The position numbers and the translations under genes are program-made. Below, piece after piece: positions 2,185-14,923 of a stretch of 64,000 bases of DNA (position 1 is the stretch's first letter; every line of letters starts with the position of its first letter). Below the pieces are notes generated by a model, which did not search any database, was not told the DNA's origin, and was given only the letters and a program-made list of their open reading frames with translations. Origin of the DNA: an uncultured bacterium (lineage in GTDB: Bacteria; Krumholzibacteriota; Krumholzibacteriia; LZORAL124-64-63); contig CAIWHK010000018.1 in assembly GCA_903912525.1 (NCBI GenBank), forward strand, positions 62,001-126,000, in the 5' to 3' direction.

Positions 2185-4260
2185 TCAATATGACGATACC
2201 GGGTCGATGTCCAGCATCGCATCGACGCCCGGGAACGACTCCGCGAGCGAGCGCAGGCAGCCCGCCAGCCATTCCTTCTGGCGCACGGTGAGGTCCCCCT
2301 TGACGAGGATCTGGAACCGGTACCGGTCCATCAGGCGCTCGAAGACGGCCGGGGCCGGCCCCAGCAGCGTCACCGCACCACCGGCGAAGCCTTCGCGAAG
2401 CGCGCCGGCCAGGGCGGCCGCGGCGCCGGCCGCATCGGCCTGCCGCCGCGCCGCGATCCCGATGCGTGCCAGCCGGCGGTGCGGCGGATACCCCAACTGG
2501 CGGCGCATGTCGAGTTCGGTGGCGGCGAACGCCGCGAAATCGTGCGCCGCGACGGCCAGGATGACCGGATGCTCCGGCTGCCACGTCTGCAGCAGCACCC
2601 TGCCGGCCGCGGTGCGCCCGGCCCGCCCGGCCACCTGGGACAGCAACTGGAAGGAGCGCTCGGCGGCGCGGAAGTCGGGCATGCCCAGTCCGTCGTCCGC
2701 GGCCAGGACGCCGACCAGCGAGACGCCCGGGAAGTGATGGCCCTTCGCCACCATCTGCGTGCCGAGCAGGATGTCGGCCTCGCCGCGCGCGAACGCCCCG
2801 AGGATGCGGTGGTGGCTGTCGCGCCCGGTGGTCGTGTCGCGATCAAGGCGCAGCAGGCGTGCCTGCGGGAAGCGCCCCTGCAACTGCAGCTCGATGCGCT
2901 CGGTGCCCGCGCCCGAGGGCAGGAACGTGGCGTGCCCGCACGACTCGCACGACGACGGCACCGGGCGCATGTGGCCGCAGTAATGGCAGAGCAGGCGACG
3001 CGGGCGCAGGTGGTACGTGACGGCGATGTCGCAATCGGGGCAGGCAGCCGCAGCGCCGCAGGCCGCGCACTGCAGCGACCGCGCGAAACCGCGGCGATTG
3101 TAGAAGATGATCGCCTGCTCGCCGCGCCCGAGCGCTTCTTCGAGCGCCTGTTCGAGCGCCGGCGACAGGCCGTCGGTCGCCGTGCCGCCGCGCACGTCGA
3201 TGACCTCGATCGTGGGCATCGGAGCACCCAGGCGCTCGGGCAGTTCCCACAACCCGTAGCGGCCGGCGCGGGCGTTGGCGAGCGACTCGAGATCGGGGGT
3301 CGCCGAACCCAGGACCACCAGCGCGCCGCACTCGCGCCCCCGCACGAGCGCCGCGTGGCGGGCATGGTACCGCGGCTTCTCGTCCTGCTTGTACGAGGTC
3401 TCGTGCTCTTCGTCGACGACGATCAGGCCGAGGTCGCCGACCGGCGCGAACAGCGCCGAGCGCGGGCCGACGACGACGCGCGTCTCTCCCCTGGCCGCCT
3501 GCTCGTGCACGCGGCAACGCTGGCCGGCCGAAAGCCCGCTGTGGATCGCCGCCACGCGGTCGCCGAACCGCGCGGCGATCCGCGACAGTGTCTGGGGCGT
3601 CAGCGCGATCTCCGGCAACAGGAACAGCGCGCCCCGCCCGGCCTCAAGCGCCGCGGCGATCAGCGTCAGGTAGACCTCGGTCTTTCCGCTGCCGGTCACC
3701 CCGTGCAGGAGCATGGCCGAAAAGGTGCGCTCCGCCAGTCGCCGGCGGCCATCCTCAACCGCCACGACCTGGGCAGGCGTCAGCGCGGTGATCGCTGCGT
3801 CGACCGACGGGTAGCGCGCCGGGGCGGCGCGGCCGCCCTTGCCCAGGGCGGTGCCCGGGGCGGGCGGATGGAACAGCGGCAGGACTTCGCCGAGCGGCAA
3901 CGCGTAGTACGCAGCGATCCAGTCCGCGAGTCGCCGACGTTCACCGTCGATGCGGTACTCGCGGGGCAGCACGCGCGTGATGTCCCGCAGGCGCCGGGGG
4001 GCTCCCGCAGCGGGTTCGCCGTCGGCTTCGTCGAGCGGCGCGGCAGGCTCGGTGGCCAGGACCACCAGGCCGGAAACGCTTCGCCGCCGGCCGAACACGA
4101 CCTCGACCAGGTCGCCCGCGGTGGCGACGCGAGCCTCCTCCGCATCCCCCGGCAGGTGCAGATAGGTGAAGGTCTGCGGCAACGGCACCGGCAGCGCCAC
4201 CTCCAGGCGCTGCACCGACCGCGGCCCGGCGGCCTTCTCGCTGTCCCTGACCGCCGCCAT
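2185..4260 (-). CDS. priA: PriA, replication restart helicase
   Basis: 691 residues from the ATG at 4260, chosen because AAAGGGAG lies 9 bases upstream; an in-frame start further upstream would run through a terminator hairpin. PriA is a superfamily 2 DNA helicase that reloads DnaB at stalled forks. Visible features are the N-terminal DNA-binding region, Walker A GVTGSGKTE (about residue 190), the DEEH box in VVDEEHETSYKQ, the paired zinc-binding cysteines (CAACGAAAACPDC ... CHYCG ... CESCG), and the helicase C domain with GTQMVAKGHHFP and QVAGRAGR. Length fits the family. It ends in a hairpin terminator and appears monocistronic. Confidence 0.96.
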   Translation of the reverse strand: MAAVRDSEKAAGPRSVQRLEVALPVPLPQTFTYLHLPGDAEEARVATAGDLVEVVFGRRRSVSGLVVLATEPAAPLDEADGEPAAGAPRRLRDITRVLPREYRIDGERRRLADWIAAYYALPLGEVLPLFHPPAPGTALGKGGRAAPARYPSVDAAITALTPAQVVAVEDGRRRLAERTFSAMLLHGVTGSGKTEVYLTLIAAALEAGRGALFLLPEIALTPQTLSRIAARFGDRVAAIHSGLSAGQRCRVHEQAARGETRVVVGPRSALFAPVGDLGLIVVDEEHETSYKQDEKPRYHARHAALVRGRECGALVVLGSATPDLESLANARAGRYGLWELPERLGAPMPTIEVIDVRGGTATDGLSPALEQALEEALGRGEQAIIFYNRRGFARSLQCAACGAAAACPDCDIAVTYHLRPRRLLCHYCGHMRPVPSSCESCGHATFLPSGAGTERIELQLQGRFPQARLLRLDRDTTTGRDSHHRILGAFARGEADILLGTQMVAKGHHFPGVSLVGVLAADDGLGMPDFRAAERSFQLLSQVAGRAGRTAAGRVLLQTWQPEHPVILAVAAHDFAAFAATELDMRRQLGYPPHRRLARIGIAARRQADAAGAAAALAGALREGFAGGAVTLLGPAPAVFERLMDRYRFQILVKGDLTVRQKEWLAGCLRSLAESFPGVDAMLDIDPVSSY

Positions 4261-4351
4261 TGCGCCGCTCCCTTTGGTCGTCCTGTCTTCGGGGGCGGTA
4301 TGGTAGCGCGCCGGGGCGCGGGCGTCCATCGCCGGCCCCGGGGACGCGAAA

Positions 4352-4376
4352 GCCCGATGATCGACGACCATCGGGC
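4352..4376 (-). terminator. Hairpin terminator after the receiver gene
   Basis: GCCCGATG / CATCGGGC form an 8-base stem around a 9-base loop, followed on the minus strand by TTT. It lies about 27 bases beyond the stop of the single-receiver gene and separates it from priA. Confidence 0.65.
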
Positions 4377-4402: not shown

Positions 4403-4777
4403 CTACTCGTGCGCCACGCCGAGGATGGACTGCACCAGGTCGATCACCTTCTGCGGACTGAACGGTTTGGTCACGTACTCGGCCGCGCCGGCGGCCTCGC
4501 CGGCCTCGCGATCCTCGCGGGTCGAGCGCGCGGTCAGCAGGATGACCGGGATGTGTTTCGTGCGCTGGTTCTGCTTCAGCTGACGGCAGGCCTCGATGCC
4601 GCCGCAGCCGGGCATCATCACGTCCATGATGATCAGGTCCGGTGACTCGCTGGCCGCCATGGCCATGGCTTCCTCGCCATCCTGCGCCACCAGGACATCG
4701 AAGCCCTCGGCATGCAGGCTGAAATCGAGAATGTGGCGGATGTTGTGTTCGTCGTCGGCAATCAGGATCCTGCGCAC
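4403..4777 (-). CDS. Single-domain response regulator (CheY-like receiver)
   Basis: 124 residues forming only a receiver domain: acidic pair DDE near residue 8, phospho-acceptor Asp in MDVMMPG (about 51), Thr in LLTARS and Lys in TKPFSP. No output domain is present, so it probably acts by protein contact or as a phosphorelay shuttle. The GTG start has AGGAGG 9 bases upstream. It lies 89 bases downstream of a histidine kinase on the same strand and is the last gene of the signalling block, so that kinase is the likely partner (inference). Confidence 0.9.
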   Translation of the reverse strand: MRRILIADDEHNIRHILDFSLHAEGFDVLVAQDGEEAMAMAASESPDLIIMDVMMPGCGGIEACRQLKQNQRTKHIPVILLTARSTREDREAGEAAGAAEYVTKPFSPQKVIDLVQSILGVAHE

Positions 4778-4866
4778 GTCAGCGGCCTCCTAGCCAGCGT
4801 TACCATGTTCGGTACCATATCGGCAGTTGCGGCACGGCATTAAGCCCAGAGATCGACCGGCACCCG

Positions 4867-7536
4867 TCACCCGCGGATCGAGACCATGCCTTCCCGGTCC
4901 AGCAGGGGGCGCCGCAGGTCCTGCCCGTCGCAACCGTCGGCCTGAAGGGCCAGAATACGGTCCCGCCGCGCCTCCACTTCCTCCAGGAACACCGGCAGCA
5001 GGCGCGGGCAATAGCAGCGCCCGGACTGCTCCGACAGCTCCCTGACGGACTGGTCCAGGGTCCAGGCGCCCCGCCACGGCCGGCGGCTGAGCAGCGCGGC
5101 CAGCGTGTCGGTCAGGCGCAACAGACGCGCACCGGCCGGGATCGCCTCTCCAGCCAGCCCGGTCGGATACCCGCTGCCGTCGATGTTCTCGTGGTGGTGA
5201 CCGATGATCCGCAGCACCAGCGCGTCAACCGCCAGCGGGGCCAGGATCTCGAGACCGGCCGCCACATGCCCCTGCACCAGACGCTCTTCGTCGCGGTCGA
5301 GCCGGCCTGCACGTGCCAACAGCTGCGGCGGCACGCGGCTAAGCCCGACGTCGTAGTTCACCAGTGCGAAGGCCAGCGCCGCCAGTTCCTGACGTTCGAA
5401 GGCCGAGCGGCGAGCCGTGGCCAGGCAGATCTCGCGACACAGGCCGTGCAGGCTCTCGCGCCGTGGCTGCCCGACGGTCGTCATCGCGCGCAGCGCGAGG
5501 CGGACCCGCTGCAGTTCGAGGCCCTCGTCGTGCCACGCCGCGTAGCGGGTCAGCAGCCCGGCCAATCGCGGCGCCAGCCCTTCGAGCAGCAGCCGGTCGT
5601 CATCGTCCAGCGAGCTGCCGTCGACCTTGTTGTTGACCGTCACCACCCCGACGCACCGCTCACCGTCGCGCAGCGGCACGCACAGGAGGGACGGGGTCGT
5701 GTAGCGGGGCTCGTTCACGTCGCGCAGGGCGGCCGCATCGGTCGTCACGTCTTCGACGAGCAGCGTGCCGCCGGTAGCCCATGCCCGCCCCGCGAATCCC
5801 GCGCCGCGCCGCAGGCGCGTCCCCTGCACCACGGTCCCAGGCAGGCCGACGGCCGCGCGGATCACCAGTGCCTGGTCCTCGTCATCGGGTAGCATCAGCG
5901 CTGCGGACTGGACACCGAGGCTCTCGACCACCCAGTGCATCAGGCGCTGCAGGAATTCCCCGGGCTCGAGCCCGCCGGCGGCGGTATTCCCGCCCTCGCG
6001 ATTGAGCACAACCGGTGCGCGGCGCGGCAGCAGCACAGTGAACCGCGTGCCCCGCGGTTCGACGTTCTCCGCCCAGATGCGCCCGTCGTGGTGCTGCACG
6101 ATGTCGTGGCAGATCGTCAGCCCGACTCCCTGGCCGCTGTGCATGCGCGTGGCCGAGCCGTCGACCTGGAAGAACGACTGGAAGATCTCGCCCAGGTGGT
6201 CGTCGGGAACGCCGATGCCCGTGTCCTCGACGACGACGCGCGCGGCCGTTCCCGACTCGCCGACCGTCACCCGGACCGTGCCGCCGGCCGGGGTAAACTT
6301 GATCGCGTTGTCCAGCAGGTGGTCGAACAGCTGGCGCAGGAGCACATGGTCGGCCGACAGAGGGACGGGTGAATCGCCGGTCTCGATCACGAGTTGCAGG
6401 TCCTGCGAAGCGGCGCGCGGCAGCCAGCCCTCGGCCTGCCGCCGGATGAGGTGGGCCAGGTCAACCTCGGACGTGTTCAACGCCGGGCGCCCCTGCTCCA
6501 TGCTGTTGATCTCGAGGATGTCGCTGATCACGCCGCTCAGGCGCTGGCTCTCGCTGTGGATAACGCCCAGGAACTCCGTCAGCGCGTCGCCCGACAGGTT
6601 GCCGAGGTTGGACTGCAGCAACTCGCTGTAGGCCGAGATCGAGGTCAGCGGCGTGCGCAGTTCGTGGCTCACGTTGGCGACGAAATTGCGCTTCATCTTC
6701 GCGAGGCTGTCAAGGCGACGCGAGGCGATCGAGAGTTCGGCATTGCGCTCGGCCAGGCGTTCATAGATCCCCGCCGCCTCCAGCGCCGTGGCGGCCTGGC
6801 GCACGAGGAATTCCAACAGCCGGATACCTTCGGGGTCGGGCACACGGCCGTCGACCGGCTTGTCCAGGCTCAGGAAGCCCAACCTCTCGCCGGACGACGC
6901 CACCAACGGAGCGATCAACTCGAGTCCTGCGGTCCAGGGCCCTGCCGACGGCGCCGGCGAGTGACGGTCCCCGCTGCCCGCGTCCGCCGGCACGAGAAAG
7001 CAGTCGGAGTAGCGGCGCGACGGCGCCGCCAGTTCCGCGAAATCCTCGCTCGAAAGCGGGACCGCCGTCAGCACGGCGACTTCCTGCGGAGCGTGTCCGA
7101 CGAACGCCCGCGGCACGAATGCATCGACAGCATCGTCCCACAGGCTCAACCGGACGCGACCGAAGCCGCCCAGTTCGGCAGCCGCCGCCACGATGCCCTC
7201 GGCCAGCTCCGCGCGACCCCGGGTGGCGCTGAGCCGGTTCGCCGACGCCAGTATGCGTTCGAGCATCCGCACCCGCGCACGCGCGGGATCGGGCACCGGT
7301 TCCACGATTTCACGCAGGTCGACCTCGGGCAGGGAGATTTCCGCGCTCGCTGCGGCCTGGACGTCGGCCTCCAGTGCCCGCAACAGGCGGCGGTGCATCC
7401 AACCGGTCACGGCCAGGATGAGTCCGCCGGCAAAAGCCAGCCACATCGCGCGCAGGGCGACACCGAGCAACACGGCCGCAACCGCCAGCATGGCCAGCGG
7501 GCCGACGAGGCGTTGCACGGCGCGCACGGGGTTCAT
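4867..7536 (-). CDS. Hybrid sensor histidine kinase with GAF domains and a degenerate HD-GYP-like C-terminus
   Basis: 889 residues from ATG 7536, which overlaps the preceding receiver's stop (TGATG). Order: two membrane segments (about 13-55), a GAF-like region, HisKA with phospho-His in SHELRTPLTS (about 289), HATPase with DNAIKFTPAGG, DTGIGVPDD and GQGVGLTICH, a second GAF-like domain (about 520-660), then an HD-GYP-like domain. The latter keeps HHHENIDGSGYP (about 787), but the HD pair reads NYD instead of LHD and the following Lys is lost, so phosphodiesterase activity against c-di-GMP is doubtful; it may be a binding or regulatory domain. An intact kinase and a diverged HD-GYP in one chain is unusual, and the next kinase has the same architecture. 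Confidence 0.88.
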   Translation of the reverse strand: MNPVRAVQRLVGPLAMLAVAAVLLGVALRAMWLAFAGGLILAVTGWMHRRLLRALEADVQAAASAEISLPEVDLREIVEPVPDPARARVRMLERILASANRLSATRGRAELAEGIVAAAAELGGFGRVRLSLWDDAVDAFVPRAFVGHAPQEVAVLTAVPLSSEDFAELAAPSRRYSDCFLVPADAGSGDRHSPAPSAGPWTAGLELIAPLVASSGERLGFLSLDKPVDGRVPDPEGIRLLEFLVRQAATALEAAGIYERLAERNAELSIASRRLDSLAKMKRNFVANVSHELRTPLTSISAYSELLQSNLGNLSGDALTEFLGVIHSESQRLSGVISDILEINSMEQGRPALNTSEVDLAHLIRRQAEGWLPRAASQDLQLVIETGDSPVPLSADHVLLRQLFDHLLDNAIKFTPAGGTVRVTVGESGTAARVVVEDTGIGVPDDHLGEIFQSFFQVDGSATRMHSGQGVGLTICHDIVQHHDGRIWAENVEPRGTRFTVLLPRRAPVVLNREGGNTAAGGLEPGEFLQRLMHWVVESLGVQSAALMLPDDEDQALVIRAAVGLPGTVVQGTRLRRGAGFAGRAWATGGTLLVEDVTTDAAALRDVNEPRYTTPSLLCVPLRDGERCVGVVTVNNKVDGSSLDDDDRLLLEGLAPRLAGLLTRYAAWHDEGLELQRVRLALRAMTTVGQPRRESLHGLCREICLATARRSAFERQELAALAFALVNYDVGLSRVPPQLLARAGRLDRDEERLVQGHVAAGLEILAPLAVDALVLRIIGHHHENIDGSGYPTGLAGEAIPAGARLLRLTDTLAALLSRRPWRGAWTLDQSVRELSEQSGRCYCPRLLPVFLEEVEARRDRILALQADGCDGQDLRRPLLDREGMVSIRG

Positions 7537-7937
7537 CAGCGGCCTTCCTGCACCTGTCCCGACCTGGCGGTGAGCATGCGGCCCACGCGGTCGACGAGCT
7601 TGGCGATCACGAATGGCTTGCGCATGAACAAGTCGGCGCCGGCTTCCTTCATGCGACCCCGCGTCTCCTCGTCCGCGCGCGCCGACAGGGCCACGATGAG
7701 CGTGCCGTTCTGCAGCCGATTGCGGCGGATCAGGCGCGTGGCATCGACGCCGTCCAGCCGCGGCATCATGATGTCCATGATGACGACGTCGGGCTGGAAC
7801 GAGGCGATCTTGTTCATGCAATCGATGCCGTCGTGGGCATTGGCCACCTCGTAGCCTTCGGCCACGAAGGTCTGTGCGAGCAGCGTGGCGATCGGCTTCT
7901 CGTCGTCGACGATCAGGATGCGCGGACGGGGCGGCAT
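7536..7937 (-). CDS. Single-domain response regulator
   Basis: 133 residues, a receiver domain alone: DDE near residue 11, phospho-acceptor Asp in MDIMMPRLDG (about 56), Ser in ALSAR and Lys in RKPF. GGAGGAG lies 5 bases before the ATG. It sits between the two kinase/HD-GYP proteins, with 20 bases to the upstream gene and a one-base stop/start overlap with the downstream kinase, so it is almost certainly co-translated with them and part of the same relay. There is no DNA-binding output domain. Confidence 0.9.
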   Translation of the reverse strand: MPPRPRILIVDDEKPIATLLAQTFVAEGYEVANAHDGIDCMNKIASFQPDVVIMDIMMPRLDGVDATRLIRRNRLQNGTLIVALSARADEETRGRMKEAGADLFMRKPFVIAKLVDRVGRMLTARSGQVQEGR

Positions 7938-7957
7938 TGGGCTCCTCCGGGTTCGTT

Positions 7958-10249
7958 TCAGGTTCGCGGCGCTGTCGCGCCATCGGGATCCACCAGGGTG
8001 GCGAAGATCTCCACCACGTTTGCGTCGAATTGCGTGCCGGCGTGCCCGCGGATCTCCGCCAGCGCCGCCGCGTGGTCCAACCCGCTCCGATAGGGCCGAT
8101 CCTTCGTCAGCGAGAACCAGGCGTCGATGACCGCCAGCACGCGGGCCCCCAGCGGGATCCGCTCGCCGACCAGGCCGTCGGGGTGCCCGGTGCCGTCCAT
8201 GCGTTCATGATGGTGACGAATGAAGCCGCGCACGGCCGGATCCTGCACCAGCGGGGCGACCAGTTCGCAGCCCTGCTCGACATGACGGTCAACCTCGTCC
8301 CGCTCGTCCCAGCTGAGCGGGGCCGCGCCGAGCACGATCTCGTCTTCAACCCGCGCCATGCCGGCATCGTGCAGCGTCGCCGCGTACAGCAGTCGTCGCG
8401 TATCGGCCGGGCCGAGTCCCAGCGCGCGCGCCAGTTTCGCGGTCAGGTGCAGGGCCTCGGGCGTCGAGGTGGGAATACCGGTGCGGCGCGTCTGCAGCAA
8501 CACCTGCAGCGCCTCCAGCACGCGCGCCTCCTGGCCCTCGAGATGGCGCAGCGCCGTCGCGACAATGCGCGTCAGCACTTCGAGCTGGTGACGCTCCGAT
8601 TCGCCGTAGCCCGCTTCGCCGGCGCGCCGGGCGGCGACGACCAGGCCGAGGGGCTCCTCCCCGTAGACGAGCGGGCAGTAAAGGCGATCCCCGCGGCCCG
8701 CCCACGGGCCCGCCAGGGCGTCACCGGCCACGACCGCCGGTTCGGCCTGCGCGCGGCCGTCCAGCAGGAAGCGCTGCCATCCCCCGGTGAGGATCACCGG
8801 TTGCAGCCGGCGCGCATCCGGCGGCAGGCCCATCGACCCGACCGGCACGAGCGCACCGTGGTCATCGACGAGCAGCAACACTACGGACGGCGACCCGGTC
8901 AGCTCGCCGATCGCCCGCAGCACCACCGAGATCACCTGCGAGGCCCTCTCCGGCGCCACATCCAGCGCGGTTCCCTGCGGCAACTGCGACAGCTCACCCA
9001 GTTCCTTCGGCACCAGGAAGCGGAACTCGCTGCCGCCCTGGGGCAGGCGCCGCGCCTCGATGTGCCCGCCGTGAAGTTGCACGATGTGGCGGGCGATGCT
9101 CAGTCCAAGCCCCGTGCCTTCCGCCTGCTGCGCCGCGCCCTCGGCGCGGTAGAACTCGCGGAAGATGCGGCGGATATCCTCGCTGGGGATCCCGGGGCCG
9201 TCGTCCTGCACGCTCACCACGACCGACGATTCCTCCTCGGTCAGCGCGATGCGGATGTGACCGCCGGGCGGGGTGTATTTGACCGCGTTGCCAAGCAGGT
9301 TCACGATGACCTGCCGGATGAGATCGGCATCGACCTCGGCGCGCGGCAGGTACTCCGGCGCATCGACCACCACTGAAAGATGCCGCGCCACGGCAACCGG
9401 GGCGAGCGCGCGCACGGCCTCGTGGACCAGGTCCGTCATCATCACCGGCGCCAGCGTCATCAACTGGGGGCCGAACTCGACGCGCGTGAAGTCGAGGATG
9501 CGGTCGACCATGCGCAGCAGCCGCGCCGCTTCCGAGCGGATGACGCCAAGGAACTCGACCGACTGCGGAAATGCCTCGTTGCCCGGTTGCCCGAGCAACA
9601 CCTCGGTATAGGCGGTGATCGCCGTGAGCGGCGCCTTGAAGTCGTGGCTGGCCATGGCCACGAACCGCCCCTGCAGGCGGTTGAGCCGGCCAAGCGCATG
9701 GTTCTCGCCCGCCAGCCGCACGACCTCCGACTGCAGGGCGGACAGCGTCGCCAACGCGCTCAGGGCCGCCGATGCCGATGCCGCCACCGGGTACAGGGCC
9801 GCACGGCGCGCCGCCTCGGCTTCCTGACCGCACGGGCCGGCGAGGGCCAGCGCCAGCGCGACCTGCCCCGAGGGACCGATCACCGGCATCAACGTCACGG
9901 TGCCGTCGACCGGGGCCTGCGCCCACGCGCCACGCCCCGCGAGCGCCGGCTGCAGCAGCACCCAGCCCCCGGCCGGACTGCACCAGCGCGGGTCCGCGGC
10001 ACCGGGACCGGCCGCGACACACCACGGCGCGCCGCCGTCCCAGGCGGCGTCGAGCATCGGGGCCAGTGTGGAGTCGACCGCGACGGCGGCACCGGTGTTT
10101 CCCGCCACCGTGCGCAATGCCTCGAGGGCCGCTTCCATCGTCCCGACCACCGCCGAAGTCTCGCCCGCCAGCGACAGGCGCGACCAGAAGACGCCGACCG
10201 GGTCGATCTCCCGCGCGCGTTCGGTCGAACGGTGAATGACGGTGTGCAT
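7958..10249 (-). CDS. Sensor histidine kinase fused to an HD-GYP-like domain
   Basis: 763 residues. The N-terminal sensor region (about 1-180, GAF-like, no clear membrane segment) is followed by HisKA with ASHDFKAPLTAI (His about 203), HATPase with GNAVKYTPPGG, DDGPGIPSED and GTGLGLSIARH, a GAF-like domain (about 420-580) and an HD-GYP-like domain. Here the HD pair is present (LHDAGM, about 628), but GYP reads GHP in HHHERMDGTGHPDG (about 683). The downstream RPYR and FDANVVEIF elements of the family remain. It is probably cytoplasmic. It lies 11 bases after the receiver-GGDEF gene and 20 bases before a receiver gene on the same strand. A c-di-GMP hydrolysis role is possible but the changed signature leaves it open. 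Confidence 0.88.
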   Translation of the reverse strand: MHTVIHRSTERAREIDPVGVFWSRLSLAGETSAVVGTMEAALEALRTVAGNTGAAVAVDSTLAPMLDAAWDGGAPWCVAAGPGAADPRWCSPAGGWVLLQPALAGRGAWAQAPVDGTVTLMPVIGPSGQVALALALAGPCGQEAEAARRAALYPVAASASAALSALATLSALQSEVVRLAGENHALGRLNRLQGRFVAMASHDFKAPLTAITAYTEVLLGQPGNEAFPQSVEFLGVIRSEAARLLRMVDRILDFTRVEFGPQLMTLAPVMMTDLVHEAVRALAPVAVARHLSVVVDAPEYLPRAEVDADLIRQVIVNLLGNAVKYTPPGGHIRIALTEEESSVVVSVQDDGPGIPSEDIRRIFREFYRAEGAAQQAEGTGLGLSIARHIVQLHGGHIEARRLPQGGSEFRFLVPKELGELSQLPQGTALDVAPERASQVISVVLRAIGELTGSPSVVLLLVDDHGALVPVGSMGLPPDARRLQPVILTGGWQRFLLDGRAQAEPAVVAGDALAGPWAGRGDRLYCPLVYGEEPLGLVVAARRAGEAGYGESERHQLEVLTRIVATALRHLEGQEARVLEALQVLLQTRRTGIPTSTPEALHLTAKLARALGLGPADTRRLLYAATLHDAGMARVEDEIVLGAAPLSWDERDEVDRHVEQGCELVAPLVQDPAVRGFIRHHHERMDGTGHPDGLVGERIPLGARVLAVIDAWFSLTKDRPYRSGLDHAAALAEIRGHAGTQFDANVVEIFATLVDPDGATAPRT

Positions 10250-10260
10250 ACGTCCCCGCC

Positions 10261-11292
10261 TTAACTGCGCGTTTGGGGTTCGAGGTCGTCGCCAGTCGCC
10301 GTCGGGACCACGGTCCCGGTGACGGCGCTGCCGGACATGATCAATTCGGGGTCGCTTCCGCGCTGGCGGCGTTCGCGCACGACCACGCTGCGCGGTGTCG
10401 CCTTGCCGTAGCGCTTCAACTCGGCCAGCGTGTCGCTCAACTCGGCCGGGTGCGCGAATCGCCCCTGCACGCCGGGGATGAGGGCGACCGTCAGCGAGAT
10501 CAGCGGGAAACGCTCGCGCGCGCCGGCACGATTCTCGACTTCCAGCCAGCCCCGCTGCGCGTCCTCGGCGTCGTGCAGCGCCACGACGCCGGCATCGAAA
10601 TCCTCGATGATGCGCCGCGAGAGCGTGTCACAGGCCGTCGTGCCTGTGGCCAGGACGAAGTCGTCGCCGCCGACGTGGCCGATGAAGTCGCCGCCGACGC
10701 CGTACTTGTGCGCGCACGCCACCAGGACGCCGGCCAGGAACGAGATGGCGCGATCGCCCCGCGAGTACCCGTAGTGGTCGTTGAAGCTCTTGAAGCGGTC
10801 GATGTCGATGTACATCAGGGCGAAGTCCGTGCCGGCGGTCAGCCGCGACTGGACTTCCCGTTCGATGGCGAGATTGCCCGGCAGTCCGGTCAGGGGATTG
10901 GCTTCGCGCTCGCGCCGGGTGGCTTCGAGCAGGTTGGTCACCCGCAGAAGCAACTCTTCGTGATTGAAGGGCTTGACGATGTAGTCGTTCGCGCCGCCCT
11001 TCAGCCCGGTCACCTTGTCGACCGAATCGCTCTTGGCTGTCAGCATGATGACCGGCAGGCGCGCGGTCTCGAACCCGGCACGAATGATCTCCAGGACGGA
11101 AAATCCGTCCCTGCGGGGCATCATGACGTCCAGAAGGACCAGGTCCGGTCGAAAGCTGGCCACGGCTTGCCAGGCGGCCTCGCCGTCTTCAGCCAGGCCG
11201 ACCTCGTAACCGTCCTGCTCGAGCAGGAACTGCAGGATCCGGCGGATGTGCGGTTCGTCATCCGCAACCAGAATCCGGGCTTTGGCGACCAT
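10261..11292 (-). CDS. Response regulator with GGDEF domain (diguanylate cyclase-like)
   Basis: 343 residues from ATG 11292, preceded by GGGGGATCGAGA; an earlier in-frame start would add 25 residues without family support. A receiver (about 1-120; DDE, LLDVMMPRRDG, LTAKS, KPFN) is followed by a GGDEF domain opening NPLTGLPGN, with metal-binding DIDRFKSFNDHYG and active-site loop GGDDF (about 211), an acceptable but non-canonical form of GGDEF. A product-inhibition RxxD site is not evident just before the loop. The C-terminal 50 residues are rich in Ser, Thr and Arg and unassigned. First gene of the block with the two kinase/HD-GYP proteins, it is the likely c-di-GMP producer controlled by them. 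Confidence 0.9.
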   Translation of the reverse strand: MVAKARILVADDEPHIRRILQFLLEQDGYEVGLAEDGEAAWQAVASFRPDLVLLDVMMPRRDGFSVLEIIRAGFETARLPVIMLTAKSDSVDKVTGLKGGANDYIVKPFNHEELLLRVTNLLEATRREREANPLTGLPGNLAIEREVQSRLTAGTDFALMYIDIDRFKSFNDHYGYSRGDRAISFLAGVLVACAHKYGVGGDFIGHVGGDDFVLATGTTACDTLSRRIIEDFDAGVVALHDAEDAQRGWLEVENRAGARERFPLISLTVALIPGVQGRFAHPAELSDTLAELKRYGKATPRSVVVRERRQRGSDPELIMSGSAVTGTVVPTATGDDLEPQTRS

Positions 11293-11421: not shown

Positions 11422-12447
11422 TCAGGAAGGGGACCCTTCGCGCCAGGAAGCCAGCGGGGCGCGGGCGAAGCTGTCGAGATTCAGGGCGTCACGGCGGCCG
11501 GCGGCCAGGTGGCACCAGCCCGCGTAGGCGATCATCGCCGCGTTGTCGGTGCAATACACCCGCTCGGGCGGCACGAAATGCAGGCCGCGCCTGGCTGCTT
11601 CGGCGGCCACGCGCTCGCGCAACCGTCCGTTCGCAGCCACGCCCCCGGCCACATAGACTGCGCGCGCATGCTTGCGGCGGGCAGCCTGGAACAACCGGTG
11701 GCAGAGCACATCGGCGATGGCTTCCTGGGCTTCGTAGCAGACGTCCGCGATCGTCTGTTCGTCGAGCGGGCGCGGCAATTCCTCGACGACCGTGCGCACT
11801 GCGGTCTTCAGGCCGCTGAAGCTGAACACCGTGCGCTGGTCGGCCAGCAGGGGGCGCGGAAAGCGGAAACGGCCGGGTGTCCCCCGCTTCGCCGCAGCGT
11901 CAATGTGCGGCCCGCCGGGATACGGCAGGCCCAGCAGCTTGGCTGTCTTGTCGAAGGCCTCGCCGGCGGCGTCGTCCAGCGTGCCGCCCAAGCGTTCGTA
12001 CACGCCGACTTCCGGCATGTGCACGACTTCGGTGTGGCCGCCCGAGACAATGAGGACGGTGGCCGGCAGCACCAGTTCGGCCGTCAGTGCGTTGGCCAGG
12101 ATGTGGCCCTCGAGGTGGTGTACCCCGACGAGCGGAAGGTCGGCTGCGAAACAGATCGCCTTGGCGGTCGACAGCCCGACCAGGAGCGCCCCCAGCAGGC
12201 CGGGGCCGGCCGTGACCGCGACACCGTCGAGGTCGGCCAGCCGCAACTGCTGCTGTTTCATCAGCAGGTCCACCATCGGCAGCAGGTTCACCAGGTGGGC
12301 CCGGCTGGCCAGCTCGGGCACGACGCCGCCGAACACGCCATGGAGGTCGACCTGCGAACTGAGCAGGTTGGCGGCCACGCCCCGCTCACTGTCGTAGAGC
12401 GCCACCGACGTGTCGTCGCACGACGTCTCGATGCCCAGGACCCTCAC
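11422..12447 (-). CDS. tsaD: TsaD, tRNA threonylcarbamoyladenosine transferase subunit
   Basis: 341 residues from GTG 12447, which overlaps the nnr stop as GTGA and has GGAGG 7 bases upstream. TsaD transfers the threonylcarbamoyl group to A37 of ANN-decoding tRNAs, together with TsaB and TsaE. The ASKHA ATPase fold is clear: N-terminal VLGIETSCDDTSVA, iron-binding HHLEGH (about 110), SGGHTEVV, and GGVAANGRLR near the C-terminus. Length matches bacterial TsaD. It is the last gene of a coupled HAD-nnr-tsaD run; tsaB and tsaE are not in the window. Confidence 0.95.
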   Translation of the reverse strand: MRVLGIETSCDDTSVALYDSERGVAANLLSSQVDLHGVFGGVVPELASRAHLVNLLPMVDLLMKQQQLRLADLDGVAVTAGPGLLGALLVGLSTAKAICFAADLPLVGVHHLEGHILANALTAELVLPATVLIVSGGHTEVVHMPEVGVYERLGGTLDDAAGEAFDKTAKLLGLPYPGGPHIDAAAKRGTPGRFRFPRPLLADQRTVFSFSGLKTAVRTVVEELPRPLDEQTIADVCYEAQEAIADVLCHRLFQAARRKHARAVYVAGGVAANGRLRERVAAEAARRGLHFVPPERVYCTDNAAMIAYAGWCHLAAGRRDALNLDSFARAPLASWREGSPS

Positions 12448-14171
12448 CGCGCGGCCTCCGGGGGCGCCGATGGCCACAGGCGCTCGCGCAGCGCGGCATC
12501 GCTGCTCGCCTCACGCTCCATCGCCAACCACTGCGGGCCGATCGCGGCGGCGACCTCGCGAACGAGCACGCCGCGACTGGACATCTCGCGCGCCGCTGCC
12601 GTCCCGGCCAGCCCGTGCACGTAGCAGCCCAGCAGGGCCGCCTCGCGGGCGCCGAGCCCCTGCGCCAGCAGGCCGCCGATGAGCCCGGCCAGCACGTCGC
12701 CCGAGCCGCCGCGCGCCAGCGCATCATCCCCGCTCGCGTTCACGTACACGCCCTCGCCGGGCACGCCGATGACCGCCGGCGAGCCCTTCAGCACGACGAC
12801 GCAGCCCCAGCGGTCGGCCGCCTCGGCCGCCAGTTCGAGCCGACGTGCCGCAACATCAGCGGTCGACATGCCCAGCAGTCGCGCGAACTCGCCCGGGTGC
12901 GGCGTCAGCACGACCTCGCGCGAAGCGAAGGCCGGCGCCCGGCCGCCGCGCGCCAGCGCATTGAGCCCGTCGGCGTCCAGCACGAGCGGCTTCGCCAATC
13001 CCGGCAGCAGGTCGCGCACCCAGGCATCGGTCGTCGGGTCGTCCCCGAGTCCCGGGCCGATCACGACCGCATCGGCGCCCGCCACAAGGCCGGCGACCTC
13101 GTCGGCAACCGGCGCCGCCAGCGTCCCGGCAGCGGTCTCGGGCCACGCGCGGATCAGCGCTTCGGGCAGCGCAACACGCAGCGGGACTTCGAGGCCAGCC
13201 GGGGCCACCAGCGTCAGCAGCCCGATCCCCGAACGTAACCCGCCGAGGCCGGCCAGATGCGCGGCGCCGCCGTAGGCGCGTGAGCCGGCCAGGACCAGAA
13301 GCCGCCCGCACTGGCCCTTGTGCACGTAAGTCGGGCGCGGCGGCAGCAGTCCCAGGTAGTCGCCGCGCTTGAGCCAGTGCCAGGGCCCGGCCTGGCGTTC
13401 GCAAAGGCCGGAATCGAAGCCGATGTCGGCGACCTCGACCTGTCCCGAGTAGTCGCGCCCGGGCGGAAGCAGCAGCCCCAGCTTGGGCAGGCCGAGGGTG
13501 ACGGTCAGGTCGGCGGCCACGGCGACCGGGTCGACGCGGCCGTCGTCGCCCGACACGCCCGAAGGGATGTCGATGGCGAGGGTGGGAACGGCGCTGTCGT
13601 TCATCACCCGCAGCAGGTTCGCCAGGTCCGCGGGCAACGGCAGGCGCGCCCCGGTGCCCAGCACCGCATCGATGGCGATGGCGCAACCGGACGCCAACTC
13701 GCGATAGACGTCGGGCCAGTCGTCCGGCCGCGGCGCCACGACCTCGACGCCTTCCGGCAGCCGCTCGAGGTTCGCGCGCGCATCAGCGGACAATTCCTTC
13801 GGCCCGGCCAGCAGCATCACGACGACAGGCGCGCCCTCCTCGGCCAGCATTCGCGCGACGACCAGGCCGTCGCCGCCGTTGTTGCCGCGGCCACAGACGA
13901 CCAGGACGGCATCGTCAGGCTGTTCATGTCCGCCCGCGTCGTCACACTCAGGATCGCCGCAGCCCTCGGGGCCGCAGCCGCACGGATGGCCCTGATCATG
14001 ATCATGAGCGTGGTCGTGACCATGCCCCCCGCCGGCGTGCTCGGACAGGAATTCCAGCGCGTAATCGGCCACCACACGGCCCGCGCGCTCCATCAGTTCC
14101 AGCGAGGGCACGCCCCCGTCGATGGTCGCGCGGTCGATCGCCGCCATCTGCTTCGCGGTGCACACCCTCAT
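12444..14171 (-). CDS. nnr: Bifunctional NAD(P)H-hydrate epimerase/dehydratase (Nnr) with His/Cys-rich insert
   Basis: 575 residues from ATG 14171 (GGAAAGG upstream, ATGA overlap with the HAD gene). The N-terminal YjeF_N domain repairs the R-epimer of NAD(P)HX (CGRGNNGGDGLVVAR, AIDAVLGTG, DIPSGVSGDDG). The C-terminal ribokinase-like domain is the nucleotide-dependent dehydratase (HKGQCGRLLVLAGS, VIGPGLGDDP, TPHPGEFARLLG, NASGDDALARGGSGDVLAG). Residues about 46-84 hold an insertion with HGHDHAHDHD followed by CGCGPEGCGDPEC, absent from the family as I know it and resembling a metal-binding loop of Ni/Zn/Co chaperones. It lies just before the nucleotide-binding glycine loop of the epimerase domain. 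Confidence 0.94.
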   Translation of the reverse strand: MRVCTAKQMAAIDRATIDGGVPSLELMERAGRVVADYALEFLSEHAGGGHGHDHAHDHDQGHPCGCGPEGCGDPECDDAGGHEQPDDAVLVVCGRGNNGGDGLVVARMLAEEGAPVVVMLLAGPKELSADARANLERLPEGVEVVAPRPDDWPDVYRELASGCAIAIDAVLGTGARLPLPADLANLLRVMNDSAVPTLAIDIPSGVSGDDGRVDPVAVAADLTVTLGLPKLGLLLPPGRDYSGQVEVADIGFDSGLCERQAGPWHWLKRGDYLGLLPPRPTYVHKGQCGRLLVLAGSRAYGGAAHLAGLGGLRSGIGLLTLVAPAGLEVPLRVALPEALIRAWPETAAGTLAAPVADEVAGLVAGADAVVIGPGLGDDPTTDAWVRDLLPGLAKPLVLDADGLNALARGGRAPAFASREVVLTPHPGEFARLLGMSTADVAARRLELAAEAADRWGCVVVLKGSPAVIGVPGEGVYVNASGDDALARGGSGDVLAGLIGGLLAQGLGAREAALLGCYVHGLAGTAAAREMSSRGVLVREVAAAIGPQWLAMEREASSDAALRERLWPSAPPEAAR

Positions 14172-14923
14172 GATTGGGCCTTTCCATCGATCGCCGTTCC
14201 GTTCAGGCGCGCCAGCACATCCAGCAGCTGCAGCAGGTCGTCGACCACATCGTCCGGCTCGGGTCCCTGCCCGGCCACCTTGTCGGCGTACTGCGAGTAG
14301 AGGTCGCCGTAGCGCGCATAGACCGTGTGCAGGCCGGCGTTGCGGCCGCCCAGGATGTCGCGCTCCTTCCAGTCGCCGATCACGATCGCGCGGTCGGCCG
14401 AAACGCCCAGCTTCTCGAGCGCCATCCGGAATCCTTCCGGATCCGGCTTGCGATGCCCGGTGTCGTCGAACGTCAGGACCACGTCGAACGCGTGCTGCAG
14501 CCCGAGCGCCGTCAGCCGCAGCCACGCCTCGAAGCGCGGCGCGTCGCTGACCACGGCCAGCTTGTAGCCGTCCTTCAGCAGGCGATTGAGCACGAGCCTC
14601 GCGTGCGGATAGAGGATCAGCGAGGCGTCGCGCGCGCGCCGGTAGGCGATGACCGCTGCGGCGAGCATGCGGTCGTCCGAGCGGCCCACGGCTTTCTCCA
14701 GGAAGAAGTTGAACACGCGCTGGTGCTCGATGCCCTTCTCCTTGTAGATCGCGAAAATCGCGTCGATCGCGTCGCGTCGCCCCATCACCAGGCCCGCGTC
14801 GATCATGGCGTCGACGGCGGCGGCGATGGAGTCCTCCTTCGCCTTCATGAAATCGGTCAGGGTGTTGTCGAGGTCGAAGATCACCGCATCAATCGCGCGC
14901 GCTGCCACATCGGCACCTTTCAT
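14168..14923 (-). CDS. HAD-superfamily hydrolase (subfamily IA)
   Basis: 251 residues with all four HAD motifs: nucleophile Asp in IFDLDNTLTD, the motif II Ser in VVSDAPR, Lys in GHRKPDPEG, and acidic motif IV in VIGDWKERDILGG. A helical cap (about 20-95) fits phosphatases of the phosphoglycolate/TIGR02253-like group. The substrate cannot be read from sequence. The stop overlaps the nnr start (ATGA). No strong ribosome site precedes the ATG. It is divergent from the CPBP protease gene across 95 bases. Confidence 0.88.
   Translation of the reverse strand: MKGADVAARAIDAVIFDLDNTLTDFMKAKEDSIAAAVDAMIDAGLVMGRRDAIDAIFAIYKEKGIEHQRVFNFFLEKAVGRSDDRMLAAAVIAYRRARDASLILYPHARLVLNRLLKDGYKLAVVSDAPRFEAWLRLTALGLQHAFDVVLTFDDTGHRKPDPEGFRMALEKLGVSADRAIVIGDWKERDILGGRNAGLHTVYARYGDLYSQYADKVAGQGPEPDDVVDDLLQLLDVLARLNGTAIDGKAQS

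Follow-up and report, generated by a model that had tools for sequence, protein, structure and literature searches.

Gene layout of the locus

The window analysed here is a 64,000-nucleotide stretch of contig CAIWHK010000018.1 (assembly GCA_903912525.1, from an uncultured bacterium of the class Krumholzibacteriia), and its subject is a five-gene operon on the minus strand at positions 4403-11292. In reading order, the operon encodes a regulator with a receiver (REC) and a GGDEF-type domain (REC-GGDDF, after its motif), histidine kinase B, a lone receiver (REC1), histidine kinase A and a second lone receiver (REC2) (Table 1). Pfam models for HisKA, HATPase_c, GAF and HD_5 match both kinases, and Response_reg and GGDEF models match the regulator; the motifs read in the window are NYDVG and GSGYP in kinase A, HDAGM and GTGHP in kinase B, and GGDDF in the regulator. 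Coordinates, Pfam matches and motifs bear out the first-pass annotation, which had described two minus-strand kinases ending in HD-GYP-like domains near a REC-GGDEF protein. Its view that the block has no DNA-binding output also holds: no DNA-binding response regulator occurs among the five genes, and housekeeping genes flank them. Both of the single receivers that it had counted exist, the second (REC2) lying outside the range 4867-11292 that it covered.

The start of kinase A at position 7536 touches the REC1 stop, and from their tight spacing the five genes presumably form one transcript. The operon is flanked by tsaD and a gene for NAD(P)H-hydrate epimerase/dehydratase (NNR) on one side and by priA on the other.

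Table 1. Genes and domains of the operon and its neighbours (positions in the window).
Feature	Position	Strand	Evidence
REC-GGDEF regulator, operon gene 1; GGDDF motif, without RxxD I-site	10261..11292	-	Pfam Response_reg and GGDEF
Kinase B, 763 aa: N-terminal region, HisKA-HATPase_c, GAF, C-terminal HD-GYP	7958..10249	-	Pfam, orthologues
HD-GYP of B, residues ~573-745: HDAGM, HHHERMDG, GTGHP	8015..8533	-	Pfam HD_5 8.9e-31, residue counts, model
REC1, lone receiver between B and A	7536..7937	-	Pfam Response_reg 3.9e-26; motifs kept, 35 aligned orthologues
Kinase A, 889 aa: hydrophobic N-terminus, GAF-like region, HisKA-HATPase_c, GAF, C-terminal HD-GYP	4867..7536	-	Pfam, orthologues
HD-GYP of A, residues ~693-842: Tyr728-Asp729 replaces HD, HHHENIDGSGYP	5011..5460	-	Pfam HD_5 2.7e-30
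REC2, lone receiver, operon end, adjoins priA	4403..4777	-	Pfam Response_reg 1.2e-30; motifs kept, 48 aligned orthologues
tsaD, flanking context outside the system	11422..12477	-	TIGR03723 above cut-off
priA, flanking context outside the system	2185..4371	-	TIGR00595 above cut-off

Residues of the two HD-GYP domains

Residues needed for hydrolysis are lost from the HD-GYP domains of the two kinases while the nucleotide pocket is kept, a pattern that is clear for A and less so for B. The alignment comprised 47 A domains, 42 B domains and 66 further domains. Of these 66, five came from the window's own genome and 61 were matches in comparator loci, including some cassette members; non-cassette HD-GYPs of the same class account for 51. 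Numbering follows PmGH, the HD-GYP phosphodiesterase of Persephonella marina, and every statement on the activity of A and B rests on homology to PmGH mutants. Alanine at His189, His221, Asp222, His250, His276 or His277 of PmGH, and likewise at Lys225, Asp308 or Asp183, essentially abolishes activity; Glu185 and Asp305 mutants retain some activity, and mutants of the GYP motif, Ile294, Arg314 and Lys317 are little affected, without a substantial drop for alanine at the GYP tyrosine (PMC4159591).

The HD histidine of kinase A is replaced by tyrosine in 46 of the 47 orthologues (YDxG[LMVI]; in the window, the Tyr728-Asp729 codons lie at 5350-5355), an ancient change; the remaining orthologue (genome G017) has HDxGM. 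The aspartate is retained in 47/47. The first-pass annotation had described A as having lost the HD pair and kept GYP: the second part stands, with the GYP tyrosine present in 47/47, and the first narrows to the histidine. Kinase B carries HDx[GA]M in 42/42 (HD codons at 8366-8371 in the window). The same annotation had B keeping HD with GHP in place of GYP, which is true of the window; as an old trait GHP does not hold up, for the GYP tyrosine position has Tyr in 34, His in 5 and Phe in 2 of 41 B orthologues, and we rejected it as a meaningful loss because of this variation.

Two losses that the annotation did not mention are shared by A and B: the lysine of HDxGK and the first metal-ligand histidine. 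Lys225 is retained in none of the 89 A and B domains (Met takes its place in 42/42 B) and His189 in 2 of the 88 rows with the position filled (1/46 A, 1/42 B); Asp308 is retained in 0/47 A and 4/41 B. In contrast, Asp222, His250, His277 and Asp305 are present in every A or B row with the position filled, and His276 is missing only from two rows of genus g11, which have Ser. B retains His221, Asp222, His250, His276, His277 and Asp305 in every such row. The complete metal motif H...HD...H...HH...D is broken in A (His189, His221 kept in 1/47) and, in B, only at His189. HDxGK-type control domains sampled from the same class retain both His189 and Arg192 in 38/38. Neither kinase shows the combination of SQ for HD with loss of HH known from DvhD of Desulfovibrio vulgaris: A has YD, B has HD, and both keep HH.

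Among the residues kept by A and B are the G-site ligands of PmGH (Asp222, His250, His276, His277) and, nearly invariant, the residues that contact cyclic di-GMP (c-di-GMP), namely GYP, Ile294, Arg314 and Arg/Lys317. Since the PmGH complex with c-di-GMP was seen with the G-site iron as the sole iron present (PMC4159591), what A and B have preserved is the half of the site that was seen occupied by nucleotide; much of the other half is gone. In a column test, mean conservation of the G-site was 0.989 in A and 1.0 in B, and that of the contact residues 0.943 and 0.951, respectively; both sets lie above random columns (column means 0.583 and 0.596). The His189/Arg192/Lys225/Asp308-type set, for which five of six positions were counted and which includes the variable Glu185 position, reached 0.444 in A and 0.562 in B versus 0.874 in the 38 HDxGK-type controls; for A and B, these values measure how far orthologues agree with one another and not how far they match PmGH. 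Because possession of His221 and Lys225 defined the controls, independent evidence in that group comes from His189 and Arg192 and not from the two defining residues.

By this pattern, the HD-GYP of A is very probably a non-catalytic, receptor-type domain without c-di-GMP hydrolysis, and that of B is probably of the same type. The ligand would be a cyclic dinucleotide, most likely c-di-GMP. A role as ligand sensors, which the annotation had offered as a fallback, is the best match to the conservation pattern. Recent pseudogenisation of A was rejected: Tyr728, Asp729 and Gly731 do not vary across a set of 13 diverse A proteins, so the tyrosine is kept and not drifting. The A gene is in two frames in G016 and G023, which may be an assembly error.

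The main rival to this reading concerns B, which would be catalytically active as a phosphodiesterase through a two-metal site like that of RpfG; only A would then be a receptor or regulator, and the cyclase would be paired with a kinase-fused hydrolase. The six residues from His221 to Asp305 that B keeps in all filled rows are what such an enzyme would show, and RpfG is active without His189 and Glu185 (PMC4159591). On the other hand, B has Met for Lys225 throughout and Asp308 in only 4/41, and alanine at either position essentially abolished PmGH activity (PMC4159591); His189 and Arg192, moreover, are kept in every HDxGK-type control. We regard a working B as a serious but doubtful alternative.

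A different proposal for A is that of a metal or redox sensor, with the G-site metal and the fixed tyrosine as an extra ligand and no nucleotide receptor. The tyrosine is indeed fixed (46/47) beside four intact G-site ligands, and redox-active iron occurs in HD-domain proteins of other families, for example oxygenases (PMC8177086). Nevertheless, the c-di-GMP-contact residues are retained too, and the H-site and G-site of PmGH lie on opposite sides of the cluster (PMC4159591), so the tyrosine may not reach the remaining metal. A purely metal-sensing A is improbable on this evidence, and we keep to a nucleotide receptor.

Structure models

AlphaFold2 models were built from nine sequences of the window and loci L129-L132. 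The model of B is good (pLDDT 85.1, pTM 0.84) and that of A fair (pLDDT 78.6, pTM 0.54). Both A and B match the HD_5 family and have the HD-GYP fold, and PmGH was the top structural match for both models. The HD-GYP of the A model superimposed on c-di-GMP-bound DvhD with a Z score of 20.0 and a root-mean-square deviation of 3.7 over 192 residues. In VIA-align searches, whose rows mostly cover the GAF part, the HD part matched no fold except HD-GYP and phosphodiesterase chains. A common fold by itself demonstrates no function.

Kinase, receiver and regulator motifs

The aligned kinases (50 A, 38 B) retain the H-box histidine, the N-box asparagine and the glycines of the G1 and G2 boxes, with minor changes outside key residues. 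The H-box of kinase B in the window reads HDFKAPL, with Ala where most B carry Thr; judged by the HisKA phosphatase motif, phosphatase activity may be weakened by this change.

The regulator has GGDDF in 43/43 aligned orthologues, and no RxxD I-site was seen in any of the 43. Its motif departs from the GG[DE]EF pattern of diguanylate cyclases, and its receiver carries the Asp set. GGDDF is also found in the copies from Eisenbacteria, family f4 (L242), G039 and G045, and GGDEF only in G035. Among the other GGDEF domains of the window's own genome, three of four show GGEEF with RxxD; the fourth was missed by the motif pattern. The RxxD I-site is common, not universal, among diguanylate cyclases. 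At the place that we take to be the counterpart of a diagnostic Ser in GSU1937 of Geobacter sulfurreducens, the cassette regulator keeps GD. A GGDDF motif can be active, as in GSU1937 (PMC8835794).

The first-pass annotation had also proposed a phosphorelay that sets the c-di-GMP level. The sequences make this a fair inference, because the cassette is co-inherited, its kinase and receiver motifs are intact and its regulator is of the c-di-GMP type.

Distribution and inheritance of the cassette

A and B were searched for in 58 genomes (the window's own and 57 relatives), 55 cassette stretches were fetched, and their content was tallied by hand. The full or reduced cassette recurs across the class. 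The A and B kinases stand in tandem on one contig in 37/58 genomes and are both present on broken contigs in 2/58. Eight genomes have A without B between the regulator and A, and one more has A and REC2 alone (G056). A single HD-keeping kinase occurs in 3/58 genomes (family f4), contig ends leave 3/58 undecided for cassette content, and the locus is without any HD-GYP kinase in 4/58 (G035, G039, G045, G018). In the last of these, PriA lies at the edge of a short contig, so that cassette content cannot be judged. The reduced cassettes of the other three (G039, G035 and G045; L278, L279 and L280, respectively) retain REC-GGDEF and REC2 beside PriA; REC1 is present in G035 and G039, G039 has a kinase without HD-GYP, and G035 and G045 have no kinase between REC-GGDEF and the lone receivers. 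Because these cassettes keep the regulator and REC2, we regard the two as the most constant part of the system and the kinases as its variable input.

Families f3, f6, f7 and f8 have no REC1, and in most of their loci an extra kinase of ~276 aa (HisKA and HATPase_c) precedes B (L102, L103, L105, L107-L114); the relay is thus rewired between these families and the others. A related cassette in which both kinases retain HD was found on one Eisenbacteria contig (L131). A tree built from the kinase-to-HD-GYP stretch groups the A rows, 16 in all, in a single clade (100/99). In other phyla, the order of kinase followed by HD-GYP was seen in 0/9 HD-matching frames from 76 further loci, taken among the best 80 of 581 relatives.

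At least one of PriA, TsaD and NNR stands beside the locus in 52 of the 55 fetched stretches; PriA and TsaD occur together in 34, contig ends having truncated many of the stretches. Because the flanks are conserved to this extent, spread by transfer inside the class is not favoured; the cassette is probably inherited vertically within one bacterial class, probably Krumholzibacteriia. The recurrence of the tandem pair across the class beside the same neighbours is more than chance. The NNR frame itself (12444-14525, upstream of tsaD) encodes a bifunctional epimerase/dehydratase; apart from a stretch rich in His and Asp near the N-terminus, it is ordinary.

Co-inheritance in tandem would be expected if A and B formed a hetero-dimer in which two degenerate HD-GYPs complement each other into one working site, and dimerisation is known for HD-GYP domains (PMC13090378). 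The first-pass annotation had favoured such a complementary pair. The residue losses nevertheless overlap (Lys225 in both kinases, His189 nearly always), so neither supplies what the other has lost, and GHP is only a local variant. The kinases also occur independently within the locus, A alone in nine genomes and a single HD-keeping kinase in three, an outcome that the annotation itself had named as refuting its idea, and the tyrosine of A is kept in 9/9 genomes in which A was found without B. In addition, the metal ligands of PmGH are all listed from one HD-GYP domain (PMC4159591). The complementary pair is highly improbable in the light of these data, and A and B are better read as separate inputs.

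Genomes that keep the regulator without HD-GYP kinases speak for yet another possibility, that the HD-GYP domains bind no nucleotide and are dimerisation or docking modules, holding, for example, REC-GGDDF near the kinases. HD-GYP domains do dimerise (PMC13090378), and an association has been described between the GYP motif and contact with GGDEF proteins (PMC8177086). Docking alone, however, would not need the pocket residues, which are among the most conserved columns and as strict as in the control enzymes. We consider docking without a ligand distinctly unlikely and retain the nucleotide receptor.

Other HD-GYP proteins of the class

The remainder of a c-di-GMP system is present in the window's own genome, which has five GGDEF, eight HD_5 and three PilZ matches. 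Of the 51 non-cassette HD-GYPs sampled, 13 are without HDxGK, and domain counts thus overstate the phosphodiesterases in these genomes. Eight of the 51 form a second degenerate family in the class, in which RDxG[ML] replaces HDxGK, Glu stands at the Asp305 place and the G-site is retained (L212, L216 and L217 of G048, G036 and G040, and L126, L238, L239, L243, L252). In L212, L216 and L217 the RDxG[ML] gene adjoins a canonical HD-GYP gene, making a pair of a degenerate and a canonical protein. Whether this family and the cassette kinases share a single origin of the Lys225 loss was undecided on the tree (two changes; one in 36% of bootstraps).

Five others of the 51 have a DvhD-like SQ or CQ for HD (L003, at G000:C7:22631-23116 in the window's own genome, and L228, L241, L253 and L254), and these motifs suggest that they are likely further receptors. 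An unrelated HD-GYP on a Gastranaerophilales contig (L204, 4006-5916) reads LYDIGK, with Tyr at the HD position and the Lys kept; the His-to-Tyr change therefore arose elsewhere too.

Proposed function

Taken together, we favour with moderate confidence a vertically inherited two-component/c-di-GMP cassette with kinase-borne HD-GYP nucleotide receptors. Kinases A and B would autophosphorylate and pass the phosphate to REC-GGDDF and the lone receivers, and nucleotide bound at the C-terminal GAF-HD-GYP module would tune kinase output. Each of the two kinases would be an input of its own rather than one part of a split enzyme. Since the GGDDF protein is without the product-inhibition I-site, the kinase-borne receptors may supply feedback on the cyclase. 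DvhD gives a precedent for an HD-GYP as a non-catalytic c-di-GMP receptor (PMC13090378).

Several observations weigh against this reading. In RpfG, which is active, Phe occupies the His189 position (PMC4159591), and the loss of His189 alone is therefore not decisive for B, which keeps 6/7 of the shared ligands. The alignment is weak around His189, and A of genus g1 has a His one place off, near the modelled helix start. In families f3 and f7, some A rows have Gly at the Arg314 place (7/47) or Gln at the Lys317 place (6/47), and A of G017 (L074, 6753-9497) has HD, a reversal on the A tree. In some genomes the kinases are dispensable for the locus. The putative receptor lies C-terminal to the kinase core, with no evident coupling path, and c-di-GMP left the in vitro kinase activity of SgmT unchanged while its localisation changed (PMC3509222).

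A bolder version joins two claims: that 'half-site' HD-GYP receptors, with the G-site and contact residues kept and the H-site removed, provide feedback control from within the kinases in place of the missing I-site of the GGDDF cyclase, and that the fixed Tyr of A is functional, either by contacting the ligand or by binding iron as a tyrosinate, which would turn the domain into a metal or redox sensor. As a joint claim this is rather unlikely, and we put it forward tentatively.

The literature scan, with most subscription papers outside its scope, found no description of this operon or of a kinase-fused HD-GYP receptor, and no match for the phylum name combined with c-di-GMP or histidine kinase. 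Proteins joining kinase and HD-GYP domains may well be listed in domain databases. It is well known that degenerate GGDEF and EAL domains can serve as receptors; the solved HD-GYP receptor, DvhD, is recent. If the favoured reading is true, a class-wide family of kinase-receptors would make it possible to test which of the two halves of the HD-GYP metal site a domain must keep in order to hold the nucleotide, and to compare feedback on c-di-GMP synthesis through a kinase with that through the cyclase's own I-site.

Comparison with known systems

RpfG is a response regulator, not a kinase. It resembles B in lacking equivalents of PmGH Glu185 and His189 and differs in being an active phosphodiesterase (PMC4159591). 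GSU1937 shares with the cassette regulator the GGDDF motif of a synthase, but it belongs to the Hypr enzymes, has a diagnostic Ser and carries a membrane part at its N-terminus (PMC8835794), where the cassette regulator has a receiver.

PmGH (PDB 4mcw) is a GAF and HD-GYP phosphodiesterase module that has the G-site and contact residues in common with A and B. It has all eight metal ligands, Lys225 and Asp308, whereas A and B are without the full set and are fused to kinases (PMC4159591). SgmT of Myxococcus xanthus is likewise a sensor kinase whose C-terminal c-di-GMP-type enzyme domain has turned receptor, as was shown for SgmT and is proposed here for A and B. Its receptor is a degenerate GGDEF domain with an I-site, and it controls a DNA-binding regulator (PMC3509222); the cassette has HD-GYP domains, a GGDDF regulator and lone receivers.

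DvhD (PDB 9rbz, 9rc0) resembles A and B in an HD-GYP fold without the hydrolytic ligand set and a pocket proposed as a receptor. It has SQ for HD and Met/Asn for HH and showed no metal, whereas Asp222, His250 and HH are all present in A and B. DvhD also combines PAS and HD-GYP in a membrane protein and controls a protease (PMC13090378), while A and B are kinases.

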